Positions 31,362 through 42,761 of a DNA stretch of 42,761 nt are shown one piece after another. The stretch is from an archaeon (GTDB taxonomy: Archaea > Nanobdellota > Nanobdellia > Pacearchaeales > GW2011-AR1). The notes beneath the pieces were generated by a model. That model had not been told where the DNA came from. It saw only the letters and a program-made list of their open reading frames with translations, and did not search any database. Location: positions 1 to 42,761 of the forward strand of contig JABHSE010000003.1 in NCBI GenBank assembly GCA_018697035.1, read 5' to 3'. The first letter of the stretch is position 1. Every line of letters begins with the position of its first letter. The position numbers and the translations under genes were made by a program.

Positions 31362-32165
31362 TTATAGATTATCCAGAGGAGACTTTATATTTTTAATTGA
31401 TGCTTGAGATATATGAGTATAGATTTGAGTAGTTTTAATATCAGAATGTCCAAGTACTTTTTGTATAATTCGTAAATCAGTTCCAGCTTCAAGTAAATGC
31501 GTAGCAAAACTATGTCGGAGCAAATGAGGATAAACTCGTTTTTTAATCCCAGTTTTCTTAGCAGCATTTTTCAAAATAACCTGAATAGTTTTAGTCGTCA
31601 ATTTTCCCCCACGGTTAGAAGCAAACAAATAACTCTCTTCAGAAATATTCATAAAACTCTCCAGCTCTTCTTTCATCGAACTCGGTATTTTCACAAACCT
31701 ATCCTTACGCCCCTTCGCCATTTTAACATGAATCAATTCCTCTTCAAAATTCACATCTCCCTTTTCCAAAGCGACAACTTCAGAAACCCTTAGCCCGCAC
31801 CCATAAAGAACTTTCATTATCAAAACATGCTTAATATTCCGAGTATTATCAATCAATTGTTTGATTTCCTTAATAGTTAAGATGTTTGGAAGAGGTTTAT
31901 TCTTTTTTATCGTAGGCAATTTTAGATCTTGCCTTAAAATATTTTCAAAAAAGAATTTAATTGCGAACATGTCTTTTGCTACACTTGATGGGTTCTGCCT
32001 TTCTAGCTGCTCAGCGATATATTCTCTTACAATCTTTTCATTAAGACCCCTTCCTTCAGAATATTCAATAAATTTACCCACAGAATACAAATAACTCTTA
32101 ATTGTTTTTCTAGAATAATTTCTAATTTTAAGCTCTTGCTCCAATTTAACAAGCAATCCGTTCAT
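31362..32165 (-). CDS. xerA: Tyrosine recombinase XerA-like
   Basis: Predicted 267 residues. The N-terminal SAM-like core-binding domain (NYSRKTIKSYLYSVGKF) is followed by the catalytic domain with Arg in GCGLRVSEV, Lys in AKGRKDRFV, HLLRH, LGHSD and Tyr in TQIYTH, and the C-terminal phrase IKSPLDNL. All active residues are present. Archaeal XerA resolves chromosome dimers at dif; integron IntI is related but carries an extra ~20-residue patch that I do not see here. It is coupled to topA downstream. Upstream, 215 bp away and divergent, begins an accessory island, so a role in cassette or island mobility is possible. The TATA near 32190 gives leaderless spacing. Confidence 0.9.
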   Translation of the reverse strand: MNGLLVKLEQELKIRNYSRKTIKSYLYSVGKFIEYSEGRGLNEKIVREYIAEQLERQNPSSVAKDMFAIKFFFENILRQDLKLPTIKKNKPLPNILTIKEIKQLIDNTRNIKHVLIMKVLYGCGLRVSEVVALEKGDVNFEEELIHVKMAKGRKDRFVKIPSSMKEELESFMNISEESYLFASNRGGKLTTKTIQVILKNAAKKTGIKKRVYPHLLRHSFATHLLEAGTDLRIIQKVLGHSDIKTTQIYTHISQASIKNIKSPLDNL

Positions 32166-32380
32166 TTTAAAATAAATACTTTATTATTTAAAAAGTTCTG
32201 TAAACATCCCAAAATAGTATCTTTTACGAACATTTATTCGCAGTACACCTTGTTAAGTCGAATAAAAACAGCACATTTTCCCACCCAAAGAAGCGCGCTT
32301 AATTTTTCTTTTCGAAAAATAGATAGCTAAAAATCAAAGATTTTAGAAAGTTATATAACCTATCAAAACTAAGAAGAATT
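32166..32380. other. xerA/GNAT divergent intergenic region with element remnant
   Basis: 215 bp without a gene. It holds the xerA TATA (near 32182-32195) and the GNAT TATA (GTTATATAAC, 32350-32359). Between them lies a remnant of the island repeats: CCCACCC, the 10-bp palindrome AAGCGCGCTT (32291-32300) and TTAATTTTTCTTTTC (32299-32313), which is identical to 15 bases in spacer B (35579-35593). An imperfect hairpin with CTAAAA/TTTTAG arms lies at 32327-32346. If the neighbouring recombinase acts here, this would be the attachment-site candidate. Confidence 0.5.
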
Positions 32381-32860
32381 ATGGCTACAACCATCAGAAA
32401 AGCAACAATGAAGGATTTGAAGAAAATTCAAGAATTAAATCTAGAATTATTTAAAAAAGAAAAGAAAGAATACGACTCCTTATTAGATTTAGATTGGGTT
32501 CTTGGAAAAGATGGAATTGAATACTACAAAAACCGAATTTCCAAAGATAATAGTTGTGTTTTGGTTTCTATTGTTGATGGTAAAATTGTGGGATATTTGT
32601 GTGGAGAACTTGGTAAGACAGGGGCTTACAGACGTTTGTCAAAAGTTATTCCTGCTTACTTAGAAACTATTTTTATTTTAGAAGAATTTAGGTCTAAGAA
32701 AATTGGGAAAAAGTTATATGATAAGTTTATTGAATGGTGTAAAACAAAAAATGTTAGCAAGGCGATGTTGGATGTTTCTACGAAAAATAAATTAGCAATA
32801 AAATTTTATCGGAAAAACAAGTTTGTAGATTATTCATTGACATTAGAAACAGATTTATAG
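32381..32860 (+). CDS. GNAT family N-acetyltransferase
   Basis: Predicted 159 residues. The GNAT fold is indicated by the IRKATMKDLKKI start, the LETIFILEEFRSKKIGKKL segment (motif A, acetyl-CoA pyrophosphate loop R-x-x-x-x-G-K) and the terminal NKLAIKFYRKNKFVD (motif B). It transfers an acetyl group from acetyl-CoA to an unknown amine. Codons end mostly in A or T, unlike the core genes nearby, fitting transfer. It is the first gene of the accessory island, divergent from xerA, with its own TATA ~27 nt upstream. Confidence 0.85.
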   Translation: MATTIRKATMKDLKKIQELNLELFKKEKKEYDSLLDLDWVLGKDGIEYYKNRISKDNSCVLVSIVDGKIVGYLCGELGKTGAYRRLSKVIPAYLETIFILEEFRSKKIGKKLYDKFIEWCKTKNVSKAMLDVSTKNKLAIKFYRKNKFVDYSLTLETDL

Positions 32861-32914
32861 ACAATTAATTTTTACAAACAATAAACCTTAAAACTCCTCT
32901 TTCTATCTAATTCT

Positions 32915-33436
32915 ATGAATAATCAAAGAGTGGCTATTTTTATTGACGGAAGTAATCTTTATCACAACCTAAGAAGATTTGATATAAAAACAAGATTTGA
33001 AGATATCATAAAAAGAATTGAAACAAAGAGAGAAATTGTAGATATTTTTTATTATACGGCCTTGTTGGATAAATCAATAGATGAGAAAAAATACAAAGAC
33101 CATAAAAGATTTTTAGATAAGATTAAGATAATTCCTAATTTTAATATAGTTTTATGCAATTTAAGAAAAATTGTTTTGCCCGATGGCTCTGTTGATTTTT
33201 CAATAAAAGGCGACGATGTTTATTTAGCAACAGATTTAATTAAAGGTTCTTATGAAAATTTATACGATATTGCCATAATTGTCTCAGGAGATGCAGATTT
33301 TATTCCTGCAATAAATCTTGTTAGAAAGAATGGCAAAAAAGTGATTAATGCTTTCTTTCCAAAAAGTTCTTCATATCAATTAAGGAATTGTTGTGATGGT
33401 TCAATAAATCTCAAAAAAGCATTAAATAAAAAGTAG
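32915..33436 (+). CDS. NYN (LabA/DUF88-type, PIN-like) domain protein
   Basis: Predicted 173 residues. Acidic metal-site residues of the PIN-like NYN fold are visible: AIFIDGSNLYHNLR near the N-terminus, KGDDVYLATDLI in the middle and VSGDADFIPAI, then GKKVINAFF. Family members are RNases or RNA-binding proteins; single-domain ones in mobile islands can be toxins or defence effectors, but no antitoxin partner is evident. A TATA (CCTTAAAAC, 32884-32893) gives it a separate leaderless start. The low-GC codon use matches the island. Confidence 0.85.
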   Translation: MNNQRVAIFIDGSNLYHNLRRFDIKTRFEDIIKRIETKREIVDIFYYTALLDKSIDEKKYKDHKRFLDKIKIIPNFNIVLCNLRKIVLPDGSVDFSIKGDDVYLATDLIKGSYENLYDIAIIVSGDADFIPAINLVRKNGKKVINAFFPKSSSYQLRNCCDGSINLKKALNKK

Positions 33437-33533
33437 TCCCAATGTGGCGAACCACACGGGACAGTTATTAATATTATTATATTTCTAAACTTTAAAAATC
33501 CTTCGGTTGTCTAATTTTCACCCTTCGTGGCGA

Positions 33534-33981
33534 CTTACTTTTTAGAAAAAAGTAAGCAAAAAGCGTGCGCTTCCCACCCTAAGATAGGAGATTTAAATTT
33601 TCTTAACGCAGAAGAAAAAACTCCTTCGCTTCGCTCGGTAACGCCTTGCAGGCTCTCGCTTCATTTCATTACGCTCCCACGACTTAACAGGGGATAAAGA
33701 GGAATTTCTTGCAGAAATTCCCCAAATTCTTCTTCCAGCTCGAGCCTGTGAGGTTCCGCTCCAGTCTCGAGGTCAGAAGAACTTCCATTATCCCCGATGT
33801 TAAATCGAATTTTTTCTTCTGCTAAAAATTTAAATCTCCAATCAATATTTCCCACCCCCGACGGAAGCGCGCTAGTCCTACGGACAAATAGTTTTTGACT
33901 TTATCAAAAATAGAAAAACTTCTTTTATCCAACCAACGAAAACCTCACGAAATTAAAATTTCGCATAACCAAGGATAAAAG
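33534..33981 (+). repeat. Structured island spacer, copy A
   Basis: The 599-bp gap 33437-34035 holds no credible gene. It starts with a perfect hairpin (CTTACTTTTT and AAAAAGTAAG, 33534-33556). Then nested inverted arms enclose the core: GTGCGCTTCC with GGAAGCGCGC (33565 and 33863), GGAGATTTAAATTTT (33587) with its complement ending at 33840, and GCAGAAGAAAAAA (33608) with its complement ending at ~33822. After the core come a GTCC/GGAC hairpin, a TTTTTGA/TCAAAAA hairpin and a CTTTTATCC/GGATAAAAG stem (33922-33981) around CGAAATT/AATTTCG. Most of this recurs in copy B in the same orientation. Confidence 0.8.
33682..33805 (+). ncRNA. Three-way-junction core, copy A (candidate structured RNA or recombination site)
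   Basis: GGGGATAA (33690-33697) pairs with TTATCCCC (33788-33795), extended by TTAACA with TGTTAA across a 2-base bulge. Inside are hairpin 1 (GGAATTTCT and AGAAATTCC, TGC loop, 33701-33721) and hairpin 2 (TTCTTCT with AGAAGAA, CTCGAG with CTCGAG, CTGTGAG with CTCCAG, 33727-33781). The ends read ACTTAAC and GTTAAAT, which fit the RYYYAAC and GTTRRRY boxes of integron attC sites, though such short A/T-rich matches may be chance. Transcription is not shown; RNA or folded single-stranded DNA are both possible. Confidence 0.45.
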
Positions 33982-34035
33982 GCTTCGCCCAAATTTTTCT
34001 AATTTATCCTGGCACCTTCACTAAGCTATTAATTT

Positions 34036-35241
34036 TCACTCACGCATCATTAGATAAATAAAACTTTGAATGAAAACGATCGCCCCACTAATTATCAATG
34101 TTCCGCTTGCCCCAATACTGACAAACAAAATCCCAGCAATAAAAACCCCTATAGAATTCGCAATATAAGAATTAATACTTCCAACAGAACCCAAGGAAGC
34201 CCTAATTTTAGAATCCGCTATATAATGTCCTGCGCTATCTCCCACAATTTCAGCAATTCCAACTGAAATATTAACCAAAGCCATAATGATAATTGCATAA
34301 ATAATTCCCGATGAAAATCCAAATAACACAATGATAAAACTAGATATCATAAATATAAAGAACAAATAAGACCCAAAATTTTTAGAAAAATTAATCTTTT
34401 TTAGAATTAATATAACCGATAATGAAACTACAGCAAAAATACTATTTAATCCTGAAAAATGTTCCGAACTTAATCCTAAAACCTCAACAAACATTAAAGG
34501 TACTCCAATCCAAAATATTCCCCAACCAACACCTCCAATAAAATCTCCTAACATTTTAACCCTATTATTTCGTCCAGTTTTACCAAAAATAAATTTATAG
34601 GATTCCTTGGCTTTAATTAAAGATTTCATTAAAAAATGATTTGGAATACTTTCAGGTTTAAAGTTTCTTTCTTCTCCAAACTTCCACATAGCAAAAAATA
34701 AAATCCAATACATTACACTTCCCACCAACCAAATTAATCTAAAATTAATTCCAATTATAAAAAGACCAATTAAGCCACCAAGAATAAACCCTCCTTTTTG
34801 AAACAGGAATCCTTTTGAGGTTAACCGAACAATACCATTTTTATTTTTTGCAACCTTTAGGTTATCGACTATCCAAGCACTTCCCGCTCCTGTATTAAAT
34901 GTCCATGCAATTTCTGCAGTAATCCAAAAAATAGAAATCAGCCAAAAATTTGAAACTAAAAATATCCCTAAATAAGAGATACCAAACAAGAAAAAACAAA
35001 TAAGCAAGGATTTTTTCCTGGAATCATAATCAGCAACTGCTCCCGTAGGAAATTCCATGAAAACGGCTATCAGGCTTGAAACTGCGAAAAGAGTTGTAAT
35101 CCAAAGCACAGGGATACCAATAGAAATAAAATAAAGTAAAGCCATTGTCATAATCAATGTCCTTCTTATTCCTACAGCAAACTTCATTCCTGCCCAAATT
35201 GCAACGACTCTTTTTTCCCAAGAAGTATTTTTATTTTTCAT
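34036..35241 (-). CDS. Major facilitator superfamily transporter
   Basis: Predicted 401 residues, largely hydrophobic, consistent with about 12 membrane helices. The loop EFPTGAVADYDSRKKSL is the MFS motif A (cytoplasmic loop 2-3), where the consensus has Gly-Arg-Lys. It probably exports or imports a small molecule; the substrate is unknown, and drug-efflux relatives have a similar loop. The gene is flanked by two direct ~450-bp spacer copies, so it looks like a self-contained cassette. Codon use is A/T-ending as in the rest of the island. A TATA near 35269-35278 lies ~32 nt upstream. Confidence 0.9.
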   Translation of the reverse strand: MKNKNTSWEKRVVAIWAGMKFAVGIRRTLIMTMALLYFISIGIPVLWITTLFAVSSLIAVFMEFPTGAVADYDSRKKSLLICFFLFGISYLGIFLVSNFWLISIFWITAEIAWTFNTGAGSAWIVDNLKVAKNKNGIVRLTSKGFLFQKGGFILGGLIGLFIIGINFRLIWLVGSVMYWILFFAMWKFGEERNFKPESIPNHFLMKSLIKAKESYKFIFGKTGRNNRVKMLGDFIGGVGWGIFWIGVPLMFVEVLGLSSEHFSGLNSIFAVVSLSVILILKKINFSKNFGSYLFFIFMISSFIIVLFGFSSGIIYAIIIMALVNISVGIAEIVGDSAGHYIADSKIRASLGSVGSINSYIANSIGVFIAGILFVSIGASGTLIISGAIVFIQSFIYLMMRE

Positions 35242-35288
35242 CGGACTATAATCTTAATTAAGGTTTCTACATTATAAATATATCGTGA

Positions 35289-35735
35289 AGTGCCCATTTT
35301 CTTTTTAGAAAAAAGTAAGCAAAAAACGCGCGCTTCCCACCCCAAGATAGGAGATTTAAATTTTCTTAACGCAGAAGAAAAAACTCCTTCGCTTCGCTCG
35401 GTGCCGTCTTGCAGACTTTCGGCATAAATGCCTCACACGACTTAACAAGGGATAAAGAGGAATTTCTTGCAGAAATTCCCCAAATTCTTCTTCCAGCTCG
35501 AGCCTGTGAGGTTCCGCTCCAGTCTCGAGGTCAGAAGAACTTTCCTTATCCCCGATGTTGCTTGGCTTCGCCCAAATTTTAATTTTTCTTTTCTTCCCAC
35601 CCTAACGATACGAGAGATAAGCCCGCGTCCTTCGGACAAATAGCTTTTGTCTTCGACAAAATAGAAAAACTTCTTTTATCCGACCAACGAAAATCAAACC
35701 ACGAAATTAAAATTTCACATAACCAAGGATAAAAG
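35289..35735 (+). repeat. Structured island spacer, copy B
   Basis: The 572-bp gap 35242-35813 has no credible gene. The left half matches copy A from the CTTTTTAGAAAAAAG hairpin through the arms GCGCGCTTCCCACCC and GGAGATTTAAATTTT into the core, nearly base for base. The right half differs: in place of A's complementary arm it has TTAATTTTTCTTTTC and GAGATAAGCCCGC, whose complements occur in copy C (near 37003 and 37051). The tail again matches copy A: hairpins TTTTGTC/GACAAAA and CTTTTATCC/GGATAAAAG (35673-35735). It looks like a recombinant between two element types. Confidence 0.8.
35440..35559 (+). ncRNA. Three-way-junction core, copy B
   Basis: GGGATAA (35449-35455) pairs with TTATCCC (35546-35552). 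Hairpin 1 (35459-35479) and hairpin 2 are identical in sequence to copy A. Just outside, a hairpin GTCT/AGAC with a TGC loop (35407-35417) replaces GCCT/AGGC of copy A, a paired change. The left end has ACTTAAC; the right end reads GTTGCTT, so the attC-like R' consensus is not kept. Confidence 0.45.
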
Positions 35736-35813
35736 GTTCGTTTCACTCACGCAAATTTTTCATTAATATGGGAGTTCCCAATCCTTCGGATAATTTGTTG
35801 GCTTCGCCTAGAA

Positions 35814-36332
35814 TTATTTATTTTCAATCATTCCAGAAAAGGTTTGACAATTCTTTAGCTTTTTCACTGGAGAACCAAATCCGGGAATAAATCTCCAAAA
35901 ATTAAGATTTTTATATCTTATTTCAACTTCTCTACAAATCTCAAAATTATTTTTATATTTTACATAATATTCCGCCGTATCAATTTCTTTATTTTCTATT
36001 TCGTAGGGAAATTGAATTTTATCTAAATCTTTTTCTGAATAAAATCCGATATTATTTCCGTTAATGTAAAAAAGGGTTTTAACCGAAACTTCTTCATTCA
36101 AATTTGTTCCATTTAGCATGGTAGAAATATTTGTTATTGTATTTTTTCCTGCAAGTTGTCCATAATCTCCAGAAATAGTCAAATTGCCTAGCCATAAATT
36201 TCCTATTTCTTTTTGCCTTGAATAATCATCATAAGTAATTATACCAAATCCTACAATGATTAGTGTAAGTATTAAAATTAGCCAAACCTCTAAAGGAATG
36301 TTAATTGATAGTTCTGCCTTTTTATTTCTCAT
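35814..36332 (-). CDS. Type IV pilin-like or membrane-anchored small protein
   Basis: Predicted 172 residues from the ATG at 36332 (MRNKKAELSINIPLEVW); a TTG start lies at 36347. The basic N-terminus, then KKAELS and a ~20-residue hydrophobic stretch (WLILILTLIIVGFGIIT), resemble class III (prepilin) signals, in which cleavage would fall before the Glu-containing helix. The rest is a beta-rich ectodomain with sequons and a Cys pair (EICREVE and KNCQTF). It could be a minor pilin or a simple anchored protein. It diverges from the next gene over a shared TTTAAA. Confidence 0.6.
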   Translation of the reverse strand: MRNKKAELSINIPLEVWLILILTLIIVGFGIITYDDYSRQKEIGNLWLGNLTISGDYGQLAGKNTITNISTMLNGTNLNEEVSVKTLFYINGNNIGFYSEKDLDKIQFPYEIENKEIDTAEYYVKYKNNFEICREVEIRYKNLNFWRFIPGFGSPVKKLKNCQTFSGMIENK

Positions 36333-36355
36333 ATTTTTATAAATCAAGCAAGGTT

Positions 36356-36361
36356 TTTAAA
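36356..36361. promoter_or_regulatory. Shared palindromic TATA core, exactly between two start codons
   Basis: TTTAAA is centred at 36358.5, ~27 nt from each of the two divergent ATGs (36332 on -, 36386 on +). One palindromic element can therefore serve both leaderless genes. Confidence 0.55.
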
Positions 36362-36385
36362 GTTGTTTTTCTCTATTAAAATAGA

Positions 36386-36922
36386 ATGTCGAGCAAAAAA
36401 CAAAATGATAATACTTGGAAAATAATTGCAGGTGTTGCAGTAGGTGCTTTAGTTTTAGTTTTAATATTTTTCTCTCTAGGAAATTTTAATAATAGTTCAT
36501 CTGAAAAGGAGCAAGAAGAAAATAGTTTTACTTATGAATGTAAATTCGCTTTAATTAATGGACAATTTGGCGGAACTACTGGAGAAGATGCAATTATTTG
36601 TAAATTTAGGAATGAAGGAAATGAGCCAGCAGAAGCATGTTTTAATGTCCAAGAAGTAAAAATTGATGGAGCTGTAGAAACAATTATTGCAGAATATAAA
36701 AATATTTGTTCAGGAGTTGTTGACTCATGGACTTATAGTAAAACCTCTACAAGTTATAATCCTTGGAGTGAAGAAAAATATATTTATGAACCCCAAACGT
36801 ATAGAGTTTTTGAAGATGAAGATTGTTGGGCAATAGGCAAAAATGCAGATAGCTGGGATTGTAATATGGAAGGAAGCGAGAGAGAGATACAATATATTAT
36901 TAGAGCAGAGCAAATAAGTTAA
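36386..36922 (+). CDS. Membrane-anchored hypothetical surface protein
   Basis: Predicted 178 residues: a short basic start (MSSKKQNDNTW), one membrane helix (~12-32), a Ser/Glu-rich linker and an ectodomain with five Cys (e.g. YECKFALINGQ, IICKFRNEG, EACFNV, NICSGV, plus DCWAIGK and WDCNMEG further on). The GxxPA-CF-V pattern suggests an Ig-like domain. No family recognised. Together with the divergent pilin-like gene it forms a two-gene cassette between spacers B and C. Confidence 0.6.
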   Translation: MSSKKQNDNTWKIIAGVAVGALVLVLIFFSLGNFNNSSSEKEQEENSFTYECKFALINGQFGGTTGEDAIICKFRNEGNEPAEACFNVQEVKIDGAVETIIAEYKNICSGVVDSWTYSKTSTSYNPWSEEKYIYEPQTYRVFEDEDCWAIGKNADSWDCNMEGSEREIQYIIRAEQIS

Positions 36923-36966
36923 TCCTAATAATCTTCTTTTAGAAAAAGAAGGCAAAAAGGAACTCC

Positions 36967-37217
36967 CCATTTTCTTTTTAGAAAAAAGAAACAAAAAGCG
37001 GGCTTATCTCTCAAATATATTGGTCGTCCCACCGTCCTCCCCCAACCTGAAAAGAAAAATTAAAACTCTGCGTCGCTTCACTCCTTGCCACGCCTTGCAG
37101 GCTCTCACTTCGTTCGGGTCAAGCAACAACAGTTATGAGGAAATTCCCTGCGACAATTTCCCAAATTAATTTTACGAGGTCACTTCGTTCCACTCTGTAA
37201 AATTAACTCCTCATAAC
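36967..37217 (+). repeat. Structured island spacer, copy C (divergent)
   Basis: The 301-bp gap 36923-37223 has no credible gene. It starts with ATTTTCTTTTTAGAAAAAAG as in copy B, followed by the arm GCGGGCTTATCTC (complement of B's right arm), GAAAAGAAAAATTAAAA (also a complement of B), a GCCT/AGGC hairpin with TGC loop near 37092-37102, and the core. The ACTTCGTT and CTTCGCTTCGC-type runs recur in all copies. The gap ends at the phosphoesterase stop. Confidence 0.7.
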
Positions 37218-37221
37218 CAAA
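37128..37221 (+). ncRNA. Three-way-junction core, copy C (covarying stems)
   Basis: GTTATGAGG (37132-37140) pairs with CCTCATAAC (37209-37217); AACA and TGTT flank it as in copies A and B. Hairpin 1 has AAATT/AATTT arms around a TGC-containing loop; hairpin 2 has TTAATTTTAC (37166) with GTAAAATTAA (37197). The stems differ in sequence from copies A and B but the architecture, the CCAAATT junction and the GAGGT to TTCCrCTC terminal part are kept. This is the pattern of a conserved structure. Confidence 0.45.
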
Positions 37222-37223
37222 TG

Positions 37224-37817
37224 TTATATCTCCAAAATCTTCCCCTTCCGCCCGACCTGTACAACCTTAGTCTTACCAATCTTGTCCTCAATTCCTTCAG
37301 CCTCATGAATATGCGCAGCAATCAACAAGTCAGGCTTAAACTCATCAACAGCCTTCCTCACAATTTCGTCCCCAGGAACACCAGAAAACTCCGCCAACGT
37401 ACCCTCAGCATGCAAATGCGAAACCAAAATTCGCTTCTTATCTTTCATCCTAGAAAAATTCTTCTTAATCAAACCCAAATCCTTATCCTCCAACTCGAGC
37501 TTCCAATTCCCACTTCCAATTCCAGCAATACCAACGCCACCATAACTAACATAATAACCATGAAGATTCTTGCCCTTACTAAGTCCATCTATGTCAACAT
37601 CAAAATCCAAATTTCCAGGAACAAATACAACTTTCTGCCCATTTTTCACAAACGGCTTCAAAATACCTTCCCCTTCCCCTTCATACCCATGAATATCCCC
37701 AGCCAAAACAACCAAGTCAACCTTAGATTTTTTCCCTTTGGCAGCTAACTTTTTCGCAACATCCAAGTCCCCATGCAAGTCCCCAGCAGCAAGAATCTTC
37801 AACTTTCTATTTACCAT
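37224..37817 (-). CDS. Metallophosphoesterase
   Basis: Predicted 197 residues from the ATG at 37817 (a TTG start at 37835 would overlap the TATA). Calcineurin-type motifs: AAGDLHGDL, VVLAGDIHG, VPGNLDFD, LVSHLHAEG and AAHIHEAEG. The usual GNHD motif reads GNLD, so the catalytic His is Leu, though the metal ligands remain. Small archaeal relatives hydrolyse cyclic or bis-nucleotides in vitro; the natural substrate is unknown. A period-7 repeat near 37501-37523 encodes the segment around GIGSGNWKLEL. It borders the island and diverges from valS over a shared TATA. Confidence 0.85.
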   Translation of the reverse strand: MVNRKLKILAAGDLHGDLDVAKKLAAKGKKSKVDLVVLAGDIHGYEGEGEGILKPFVKNGQKVVFVPGNLDFDVDIDGLSKGKNLHGYYVSYGGVGIAGIGSGNWKLELEDKDLGLIKKNFSRMKDKKRILVSHLHAEGTLAEFSGVPGDEIVRKAVDEFKPDLLIAAHIHEAEGIEDKIGKTKVVQVGRKGKILEI

Positions 37818-37838
37818 AACATCAACAACCCACAATTT

Positions 37839-41870: not shown

Positions 41871-42761
41871 CTAAGTTCCATCAGGTCTAACTAACTTTCC
41901 CCTCATATCTCGCCAAATCAATTTATTCTCCGCAACCTTCCTCTTGTGAACTTCCATCAACTCCTCTGTCTTCCTAAGCCTATTATTCAAAATCCTCTCC
42001 CTAGCTCCGACCTTAACTATATCATTTTCATCCATCAATTCCCCAGCCTCCTTCATTTTCTCCTTAACCAGCCTCATCTTCTCCTGCCTCTGTAACTCAA
42101 ACGCCCGACTTTCTTCCCTCAATATCTTCTCCTTATCCTGCAACTCCTTCAACTTAGCATCATACTTAGAAATCATCTCATCCTTCAACTTCTCCCATTT
42201 CCCAGCAAAAGACCTCTCCAGCATCTCAACTTTCTTCTCGTGCTTTTCTCTCAACTCATCCGCTTCTCTCTTTAGCTCCCTCTCCGCAACAAGCCTCAAC
42301 TCAGCCTCTTCCCGCTTCAACTCCTCATCAGCCCTAGCCTTCAACTCCATCTCTTTTTGCCTTAGCTCCTCCTTCATACGAACCTTCAACTCCATCTCCT
42401 CTTTCCTCAACTCCTCATCAGCCCTAATCTTCAACTCCATTTCCTTCCGCTTCAACTCCTCATCAGCACGAGTCTTCAACTCATCCTCCTTCCTTCTTAA
42501 CTCCTCATCAGCACGAATTTTCAAACTCATTACCTTCTCATTCAACTTCCCCTCCGCCCGAGTTTCCAATTCCGCACTCTTCCTCCTCAACTCCTCATCA
42601 GCCCTAGCCTTCAACCCAGCTCCCTTCTGCCCCAACTCTCCCTCAGCACGAACTTCCAACTCCGCAGCCTTCATTTTCAACTCCCCCTCCAATCTAATTT
42701 TTAAGTCATCTTCCTCTTTCCTCAACTCCTCATCAGCCCTAACCCTCAACTCCATCTCCTT
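41871..42761 (-). CDS. Coiled-coil protein with 15-residue repeats (5' end outside the window)
   Basis: At least 296 residues are in the window. The frame is open at the right edge: codons before the first in-window Met (42755) read Lys-Glu and continue the repeat, so this is not the start. Eleven repeats of 15 residues (type RADEELRRKEDELKT) run to about 42246, followed by a further ~125-residue charged helical region ending in WRDMRGKLVRPDG. It is probably a long alpha-helical rod or stalk. No ATPase or membrane motif is visible in this part; the missing N-terminus may hold one. Confidence 0.75.
   Translation of the reverse strand, partial: KEMELRVRADEELRKEEDDLKIRLEGELKMKAAELEVRAEGELGQKGAGLKARADEELRRKSAELETRAEGKLNEKVMSLKIRADEELRRKEDELKTRADEELKRKEMELKIRADEELRKEEMELKVRMKEELRQKEMELKARADEELKREEAELRLVAERELKREADELREKHEKKVEMLERSFAGKWEKLKDEMISKYDAKLKELQDKEKILREESRAFELQRQEKMRLVKEKMKEAGELMDENDIVKVGARERILNNRLRKTEELMEVHKRKVAENKLIWRDMRGKLVRPDGT
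42246..42761 (-). repeat. 45-bp coding tandem repeats
   Basis: Eleven complete 45-bp units (15 residues each) plus part of a twelfth at the window edge. Consensus ends in E-L-K and begins with R-A-D-E-E-L. Unit length is constant with no indels, and the copies differ mostly at third and a few first codon positions, suggesting expansion by unequal exchange. Confidence 0.85.

Follow-up and report, generated by a model that had tools for sequence, protein, structure and literature searches.

Integrons of archaea have been described from 75 metagenome-assembled genomes (MAGs) of nine phyla, which together hold six IntIs and 539 attC sites, mostly in the form of clusters of attC sites lacking integron-integrases (CALINs); the integrases of that survey were identified through PF00589 in combination with an IntI-specific profile (Ghaly et al., 2022, PMC9668308). 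A second point of comparison is the XerA/dif system, which resolves chromosome dimers in archaea such as Pyrococcus abyssi and Thermoplasma acidophilum. In the pdif modules of Acinetobacter plasmids, dif-flanked genes are moved by XerC/XerD, the sites being short, double-stranded dif sites of alternating orientation. Here, we analysed three spacers (A, B and C) on a 42,761-nucleotide stretch of DNA from a Pacearchaeales archaeon (contig JABHSE010000003.1 of assembly GCA_018697035.1; this whole stretch is referred to as the window). An earlier note on this DNA had correctly placed the spacers in an accessory island and had proposed either a new non-coding RNA (ncRNA) or a recombination element. 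It is the second option that stands, as indicated by a break in homology at G^TT, complementary far cassette ends, a fixed orientation and a recombinase gene lying upstream and divergent: the folded site in each spacer, termed T1, is a DNA recombination site and not an ncRNA family. The spacers are very probably the recombination sites of an integron-like platform in DPANN archaea that is run by a XerA-family recombinase.

Folded sites in the three spacers

Each spacer carries one copy of T1, a folded site of about 100–130 nt, and the stems of the shared core named in the earlier note are present where it had placed them. The recombinase, its adjoining site and the three copies are located as follows (R1, covariance model of T1):

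31362–32165, minus strand: XerA-family tyrosine recombinase, proposed to integrate the cassettes and encoded divergently to the array (239.5 bits against NCBIfam NF040815; cut-off 220)
32217–32253, plus strand: attI-like site, in which a degenerate dyad precedes the crossover G^TT (G at 32252); it is upstream of the recombinase, 86 bp from its start
33680–33807, plus strand: attC-like site A (T1), crossover G at 33799; R1 94.4 bits, E = 1.6e-16; part of the 20-copy seed alignment
35438–35565, plus strand: attC-like site B (T1), crossover G at 35557; R1 94.2 bits, E = 1.7e-16
37119–37231, plus strand: attC-like site C (T1), crossover G at 37223; R1 76.7 bits, E = 9.3e-13

From 5' to 3', T1 consists of R'' (NNNNNNAAC), an A, a stem of about 10 bp, hairpin 1, CCCAAATT, hairpin 2, AACTT, the second stem arm, GATG^TT and R'. 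The loop of hairpin 1 is mostly TTGCAG, as in A and B, and reads CTGCGA in C. The outer stem is formed by GGGGATAA/TTATCCCC in A, AGGGATAA/TTATCCCC in B and GTTATGAGG/CCTCATAAC in C, and the second stem by TTCTTCT/AGAAGAA in A and B versus TTAATTTTAC/GTAAAATTAA in C, with CCAAATT conserved. Since A and B are near copies (identity of 83% across the spacer and of 97% in 128 nt of the core) and C is divergent, the comparison of three copies drawn previously amounts to a single contrast of A/B with C, although the fold itself is real; the smaller hairpin changes cited with it (GCCT/AGGC versus GTCT/AGAC and TTTTTGA versus TTTTGTC) in fact separate A from B. Folding gave z = -7.5 for spacer A with its flanks and was unremarkable for the entire 291-nt C spacer (z = -1.3); the core of site C folded as DNA reached z = -3.9 on the top and -5.1 on the bottom strand, and the bottom strand folds better than the top one in all three window sites.

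The compensatory stem changes on which the earlier note had relied hold up in an alignment of 20 T1 copies from the window genome and related genomes. Across the outer stem and hairpin 1, both sides have changed in 16 of 22 pairs, 89% of the cells are paired, and the covariation score of 0.491 far exceeds the shuffled (0.150 ± 0.018; 0/500) and slid controls (at most 0.127). These copies were chosen partly by the presence of such stems, which biases them toward pairing; the covariance-model matches in other genomes are free of this bias. The search for further homologues suggested at the outset was indeed productive, as R1 matched in 78 of 180 genomes of the host family (46 of 87 genera; E ≤ 1e-3), in seven genomes from other families of the host order and, phylum-wide, in 76 of 279 genomes (E ≤ 1e-6), counts which are lower bounds because only some candidates were scored per genome. 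In the window's own archaeal genome (809 kb, 84% complete), all three T1 sites (3/3) are located in this island.

AAC and GTT are in place in 126 of 140 sites, whose median length is 101 nt, and T1 has the properties by which an attC site is recognized, i.e., an imperfect inverted repeat, AAC...GTT arms and a fold kept over sequence. That the structure is kept despite sequence drift could be due to a recombinase reading the fold more than the sequence, as we propose. Unlike attC sites, T1 contains a two-hairpin junction with near-invariant CCCAAAT and AAC, its R boxes deviate from RYYYAAC/GTTRRRY, and R1 found no match on a piece of a class 1 integron, where the expected attC sites remained unscored.

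Cassette boundaries and the head of the array

The sites delimit three cassettes, two of which carry a leader element termed T2:

32253–33799, plus strand: cassette 1, with a GNAT acetyltransferase gene (32381–32860, plus, PF00583), a gene for an NYN-domain protein (32915–33436, plus, PF01936) and site A
33800–35557, plus strand: cassette 2, with a T2 leader (33910–33988), a gene for an MFS transporter (34036–35241, minus, PF07690) and site B
35558–37223, plus strand: cassette 3, with a T2 leader (35661–35742), open reading frames (ORFs) at 35814–36347 (minus) and 36386–36922 (plus) and site C

Cassettes are bounded at G^TT, and the R' of a site is provided by the start of the next cassette. 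In a comparison of cassettes from different genera, similarity starts within 2–3 nt of the G^TT of site B (eight loci: L173, L054, L063, L066, L060, L050, L053 and L115); for cassette 3, homology to eight foreign cassettes starts at query base 18–19, with the crossover G at base 20. The bases following TT vary between sites. If cassettes are circles cut at G^TT, these bases should belong with the far-end site of the same cassette. Among 59 adjacent site pairs less than 2.5 kb apart, the 6 nt past GTT matched the R'' of their own cassette in 4.51 of 6 positions and that of the neighbouring site in 3.22, with a shuffled control at a mean of 2.98 and a maximum of 3.46 in 2000 trials; the own site gave the better match in 39 pairs and the poorer one in 12 (p = 2e-4 by the sign test, p = 5e-5 by the Wilcoxon test). 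Seven additional pairs gave 4.71 for the own versus 3.57 for the neighbouring site.

The window follows the same pattern. Cassette 1 starts beside the recombinase gene with G^TTAAGTCG (G at 32252), a perfect match to R'' of site A (CGACTTAAC); site A had led us to predict this position before the sequence there was inspected. The 5' end of cassette 2, TTAAATCG, pairs at five of six positions with R'' of site B (CGACTTAAC), and the start of cassette 3, G^TTGCTTGG, at six of six with R'' of site C (AAGCAAC). Spacers A and B each consist of two parts: a 3' cassette end, with its terminator-like hairpin and T1, is fused at G^TT to the 5' leader (T2) of the cassette that follows. The notion that an entire spacer forms one palindrome was rejected, since the 260-nt outer stem of A, which B does not have, bridges the 3' end of cassette 1 and the cassette 2 leader and is therefore a by-product of two related cassettes meeting. 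The final crossover G^TT (37223–37226) falls within the stop codon of a chromosomal metallophosphoesterase gene (37224–37835, minus), where the chromosome resumes.

Sites share a single orientation in 37 of 38 multi-site loci, the exception being one weak match, and this orientation is tied to the recombinase. In loci selected by their sites, the recombinase is divergent from the array in 16 of 16 and lies upstream of every site in 15 of 16 (L104 has one weak site on the opposite side). For a set that does not depend on the sites, genome contigs were searched by recombinase alignment alone, about nine of the resulting contigs being shared with the site-selected set, so that the two sets overlap. 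Where the upstream stretch exceeded 3 kb (26 loci), sites were present in 21, and 52 of 55 sites were upstream and divergent. A further 16 contigs stop within 1.5 kb upstream of the recombinase, as expected if the assembly breaks in repeats. As a control, loci around XerA paralogues in genomes of the host family carried a site in only one of 20, this one itself upstream and divergent (Fisher test, 20/25 vs 1/20, p = 4e-7), and 50 loci (719 kb) around other tyrosine recombinases gave no site match (0).

The attI-like site of the window was found via the complementarity of GTTAAGTCG to R'' of site A (CGACTTAAC). A dyad with G^TT lies 55–146 bp from the recombinase start codon in 26 loci, a 27th (L080) being doubtful; it is often near 11-6-11 and ends a few bases ahead of G^TT, with the window copy degenerate. 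The R'' of the first site singles out the attI-like GTT, whereas foreign R'' sequences are matched somewhere in this stretch in 20% of trials. By its layout and the R'' match, this element would correspond to the attI site which adjoins the integrase gene in integrons.

These observations suggest a platform in which the XerA-family recombinase would join circular gene cassettes into the chromosome, each starting with TT (often followed by a T2 leader), holding one or a few genes and a terminator-like hairpin, and closing with a T1 that ends in G. By analogy with attC, recombination would use T1 in the form of a folded single strand (probably the bottom strand), with new cassettes entering at the dyad-G^TT site that adjoins the recombinase gene.

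Recombinase and cassette contents

Apart from the NF040815 assignment given above, the closest solved structures of the window recombinase are XerA of P. abyssi and T. acidophilum, followed by IntI4 in two pieces, and the catalytic residues R126, K151, H214, R217, H240 and Y249 are invariant in 11 homologues. The IntI model TIGR02249 gave 204.8 bits in a match split in two pieces, and 191–215 bits over eight array recombinases including this one, all under its cut-off of 265; the seven others likewise pass the archaeal XerA model. In the tree, the window recombinase falls into a 40-row clade (100/100) spanning Pacearchaeota, Woesearchaeota, Nanoarchaeota, Aenigmatarchaeota and Nanohalarchaeota, its nearest named relatives being Nanoarchaeota and Pacearchaeota MAGs; IntI1 sits on a long branch, and its placement was left unused. 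With XerA/dif, the arrays share the protein family and a head dyad resembling the 11-6-11 dif site. Unlike the widespread XerA paralogues of the same genomes, however, the array recombinases form a clade apart, are patchy in distribution and are tied to folded-site arrays. XerA is expected as a single chromosomal copy at dif, whereas the window genome encodes two homologues, the second (C4:97888-98694, 42% identity) belonging to a separate paralogue clade (99/93). More distant XerA-like recombinases (38–49% identity) also head arrays (L055, L068, L069, L080, L082, L083, L213). The array association is therefore wider than the 40-row clade, and a role in arrays may have been gained or lost repeatedly.

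The 85 site-delimited cassettes have a median length of 1.1 kb and mostly hold one ORF. Further contents sampled include GmrSD-type and NgoPII-type restriction genes with a C5 methylase, Fic, an APH-like kinase, a nitroreductase, a TrmB-like regulator and the arginase family. The cassette after 137 of locus L096 (G126:C27) carries a complete type II restriction-modification pair, an NgoPII-like endonuclease and a C5 methylase. The NYN protein of cassette 1 recurs at 92–95% identity in three other genera, within the arrays of G029, G062 and G074, and the recombinases of those loci are far less alike (64% identity to that of the window in L050 of G029, 38% in L069 of G074), a discrepancy that is best explained by cassette exchange.

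Further elements accompany the cassettes in the window:

33535–33563, plus strand: terminator-like hairpin TTACTTTTTAGAAAAAAGTAAGCAAAAAG, close to the 3' end of cassette 1, with relatives at 35298–35326, 36937–36959 and 36971–36998 (repeat families)
33910–33988, plus strand: T2 leader of cassette 2 (CTTTTATCC..CGAAATTAAAATTTCG..CATAACCAAGGATAAAAG)
35661–35742, plus strand: T2 leader of cassette 3

A hairpin TTCTTTTTAGAAAAAAGAAGCAAAAAGCG lies downstream of cassette genes in the window and in many loci and accompanies T1 across genera; it is likely a terminator. T2 comprises about 75 nt with a stem CTTTTATCC/GGATAAAAG, an inner AAATT/AATTT hairpin and constant GACCAACG and TAACAAAG. Its 42 matches in 31 loci follow the array orientation (34/34) and lie 77–198 nt past a T1 crossover in 20 of 24 cases; judged by eye, its stems show compensatory variation. 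T2 may be a promoter or untranslated-region (UTR) element or an accessory recombination site, and by itself it could act as RNA. At L063:1957-2051, a T2 leader starts at GTT right behind the end of a tRNA-like sequence, with no T1 detected ahead of it; this could be a cassette that integrated at a secondary site. Elsewhere in the window, a 294-aa ORF (41871–42755, minus) consists of KxxELxxRADEELRRKExEL near-repeats, a long charged coiled coil.

Alternative explanations and implications

In its overall organization, the locus resembles an integron: a divergent tyrosine recombinase at the head, an attI-like entry site, folded sites of one orientation closing the cassettes, a G^TT crossover with AAC/GTT arms, mutually complementary cassette ends and cassettes common to several taxa. 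The earlier note knew of no family with this layout, which is half right: integron attC sites and cassettes follow the same logic, but the recombinase is not IntI. Differences are the XerA-family recombinase scoring under the IntI cut-off, the dif-like dyad in the place of attI and the conserved T2 leader. Pdif modules likewise consist of genes moved by a Xer-type recombinase, but the sites described here are folded, about 100 nt long and of one orientation.

Several points weigh against an integron-like platform. No recombination event was observed; that the window recombinase joins the cassettes is what we infer from sequence evidence. Many site-bearing loci showed no recombinase on the stretch examined, cassette ORFs are weakly co-oriented (77 along versus 49 opposite to the sites), and among closely related genomes we found no pair in which exactly one cassette makes the difference. 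R'' conforms to RYYYAAC in 34 and R' to GTTRRRY in 29 of 126 sites (chance, 1/16), so that the full boxes are a minority and AAC/GTT alone is kept. Moreover, alignment with IntI1 revealed that the IntI-specific insertion around patch III, which known integron integrases need (PMC9668308), is absent from the window recombinase. Being a XerA-family protein that falls short of the IntI model and has no such insertion, this recombinase would not be classed as an integrase by the standard integron finder. The system is hence integron-like in its working and yet not an IntI integron, since the defining feature of the integrase was looked for and is not there.

An alternative option is that the spacers are ordinary integron remnants (CALINs), i.e., bacterial-type attC sites served in trans by a distant IntI, with the adjacent XerA as a bystander. 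Archaeal CALINs are known, Nanoarchaeota included, with only six IntIs in 75 MAGs (PMC9668308), and both the AAC/GTT core and the fold of T1 are attC-like. A bystander would, however, hardly be found divergent at the head of the array beside a conserved dyad-G^TT in 26 loci, with the paralogous XerA loci siteless but for one; in addition, no IntI above the cut-off was detected in the window's own genome (84% complete), and the T1 model gives no score to the attC sites expected on a class 1 integron. We thus regard this option as unlikely.

Strong covariation, together with a terminator-like hairpin and a T2 leader suggesting that the spacers are transcribed through, would also fit ncRNAs or regulatory UTR elements of accessory genes, with the covariation acting at the RNA level. 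On such a model, one would not expect homology to break off sharply at G^TT, the two far ends of a cassette to be complementary, an attI match at the recombinase or the recombinase association, and it appears very improbable. A known RNA family was ruled out, as the Rfam search gave no match (0) at the gathering score; so was a tRNA-linked element, the window being without a tRNA. The spacers share no reading frame, as had been reported, and this absence and the covariation dispose of decayed coding sequence. A viral origin was likewise rejected: 41 viral contigs carry a related recombinase with at most 40% identity over long stretches, and the site model found none in the 16 that were searched. 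Least probable of all are MITE-like or REP-like repeats (miniature inverted-repeat transposable elements, repetitive extragenic palindromes) spread by a transposase and piling up in a variable island, for despite the inverted repeats, many copies and intergenic location, the orientation is fixed relative to the recombinase, the flanks match the far cassette end and the sites do not scatter over the window's genome (3/3 in this island).

The integron-like platform run by XerA therefore remains our preferred reading. Literature on integrons in Pacearchaeota and Woesearchaeota, on XerA in DPANN archaea and on XerA with integrons, covered mostly as open-access articles without preprints, yielded no XerA-headed form and, beyond work on archaeal recombinases, nothing relevant. 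This form thus appears undescribed, but its novelty is not proved. Some T1 sites may be among the 539 published attCs. The published filter would not accept the window recombinase, because it requires the IntI-specific profile. Somewhat more tentatively, we favour the view that the arrays represent a distinct and widespread DPANN integron class, based on a XerA-type recombinase without the IntI domain. Folded-site cassette capture would then have been invented independently, or the arrays would be relicts of the state that gave rise to IntI integrons.

Little is known about gene gain and exchange in DPANN archaea, whose genomes are very small. A platform occurring in about one quarter to two fifths of the sampled genomes would be a main route, with restriction-modification genes, transporters and enzymes as cargo, and surveys would miss such arrays because the current integron finder requires the IntI-specific domain. 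If the proposal is true, folded-site cassette capture works without this domain, and the origin of integrons would become directly testable by identifying the regions of the XerA fold that are responsible for reading the fold of T1.

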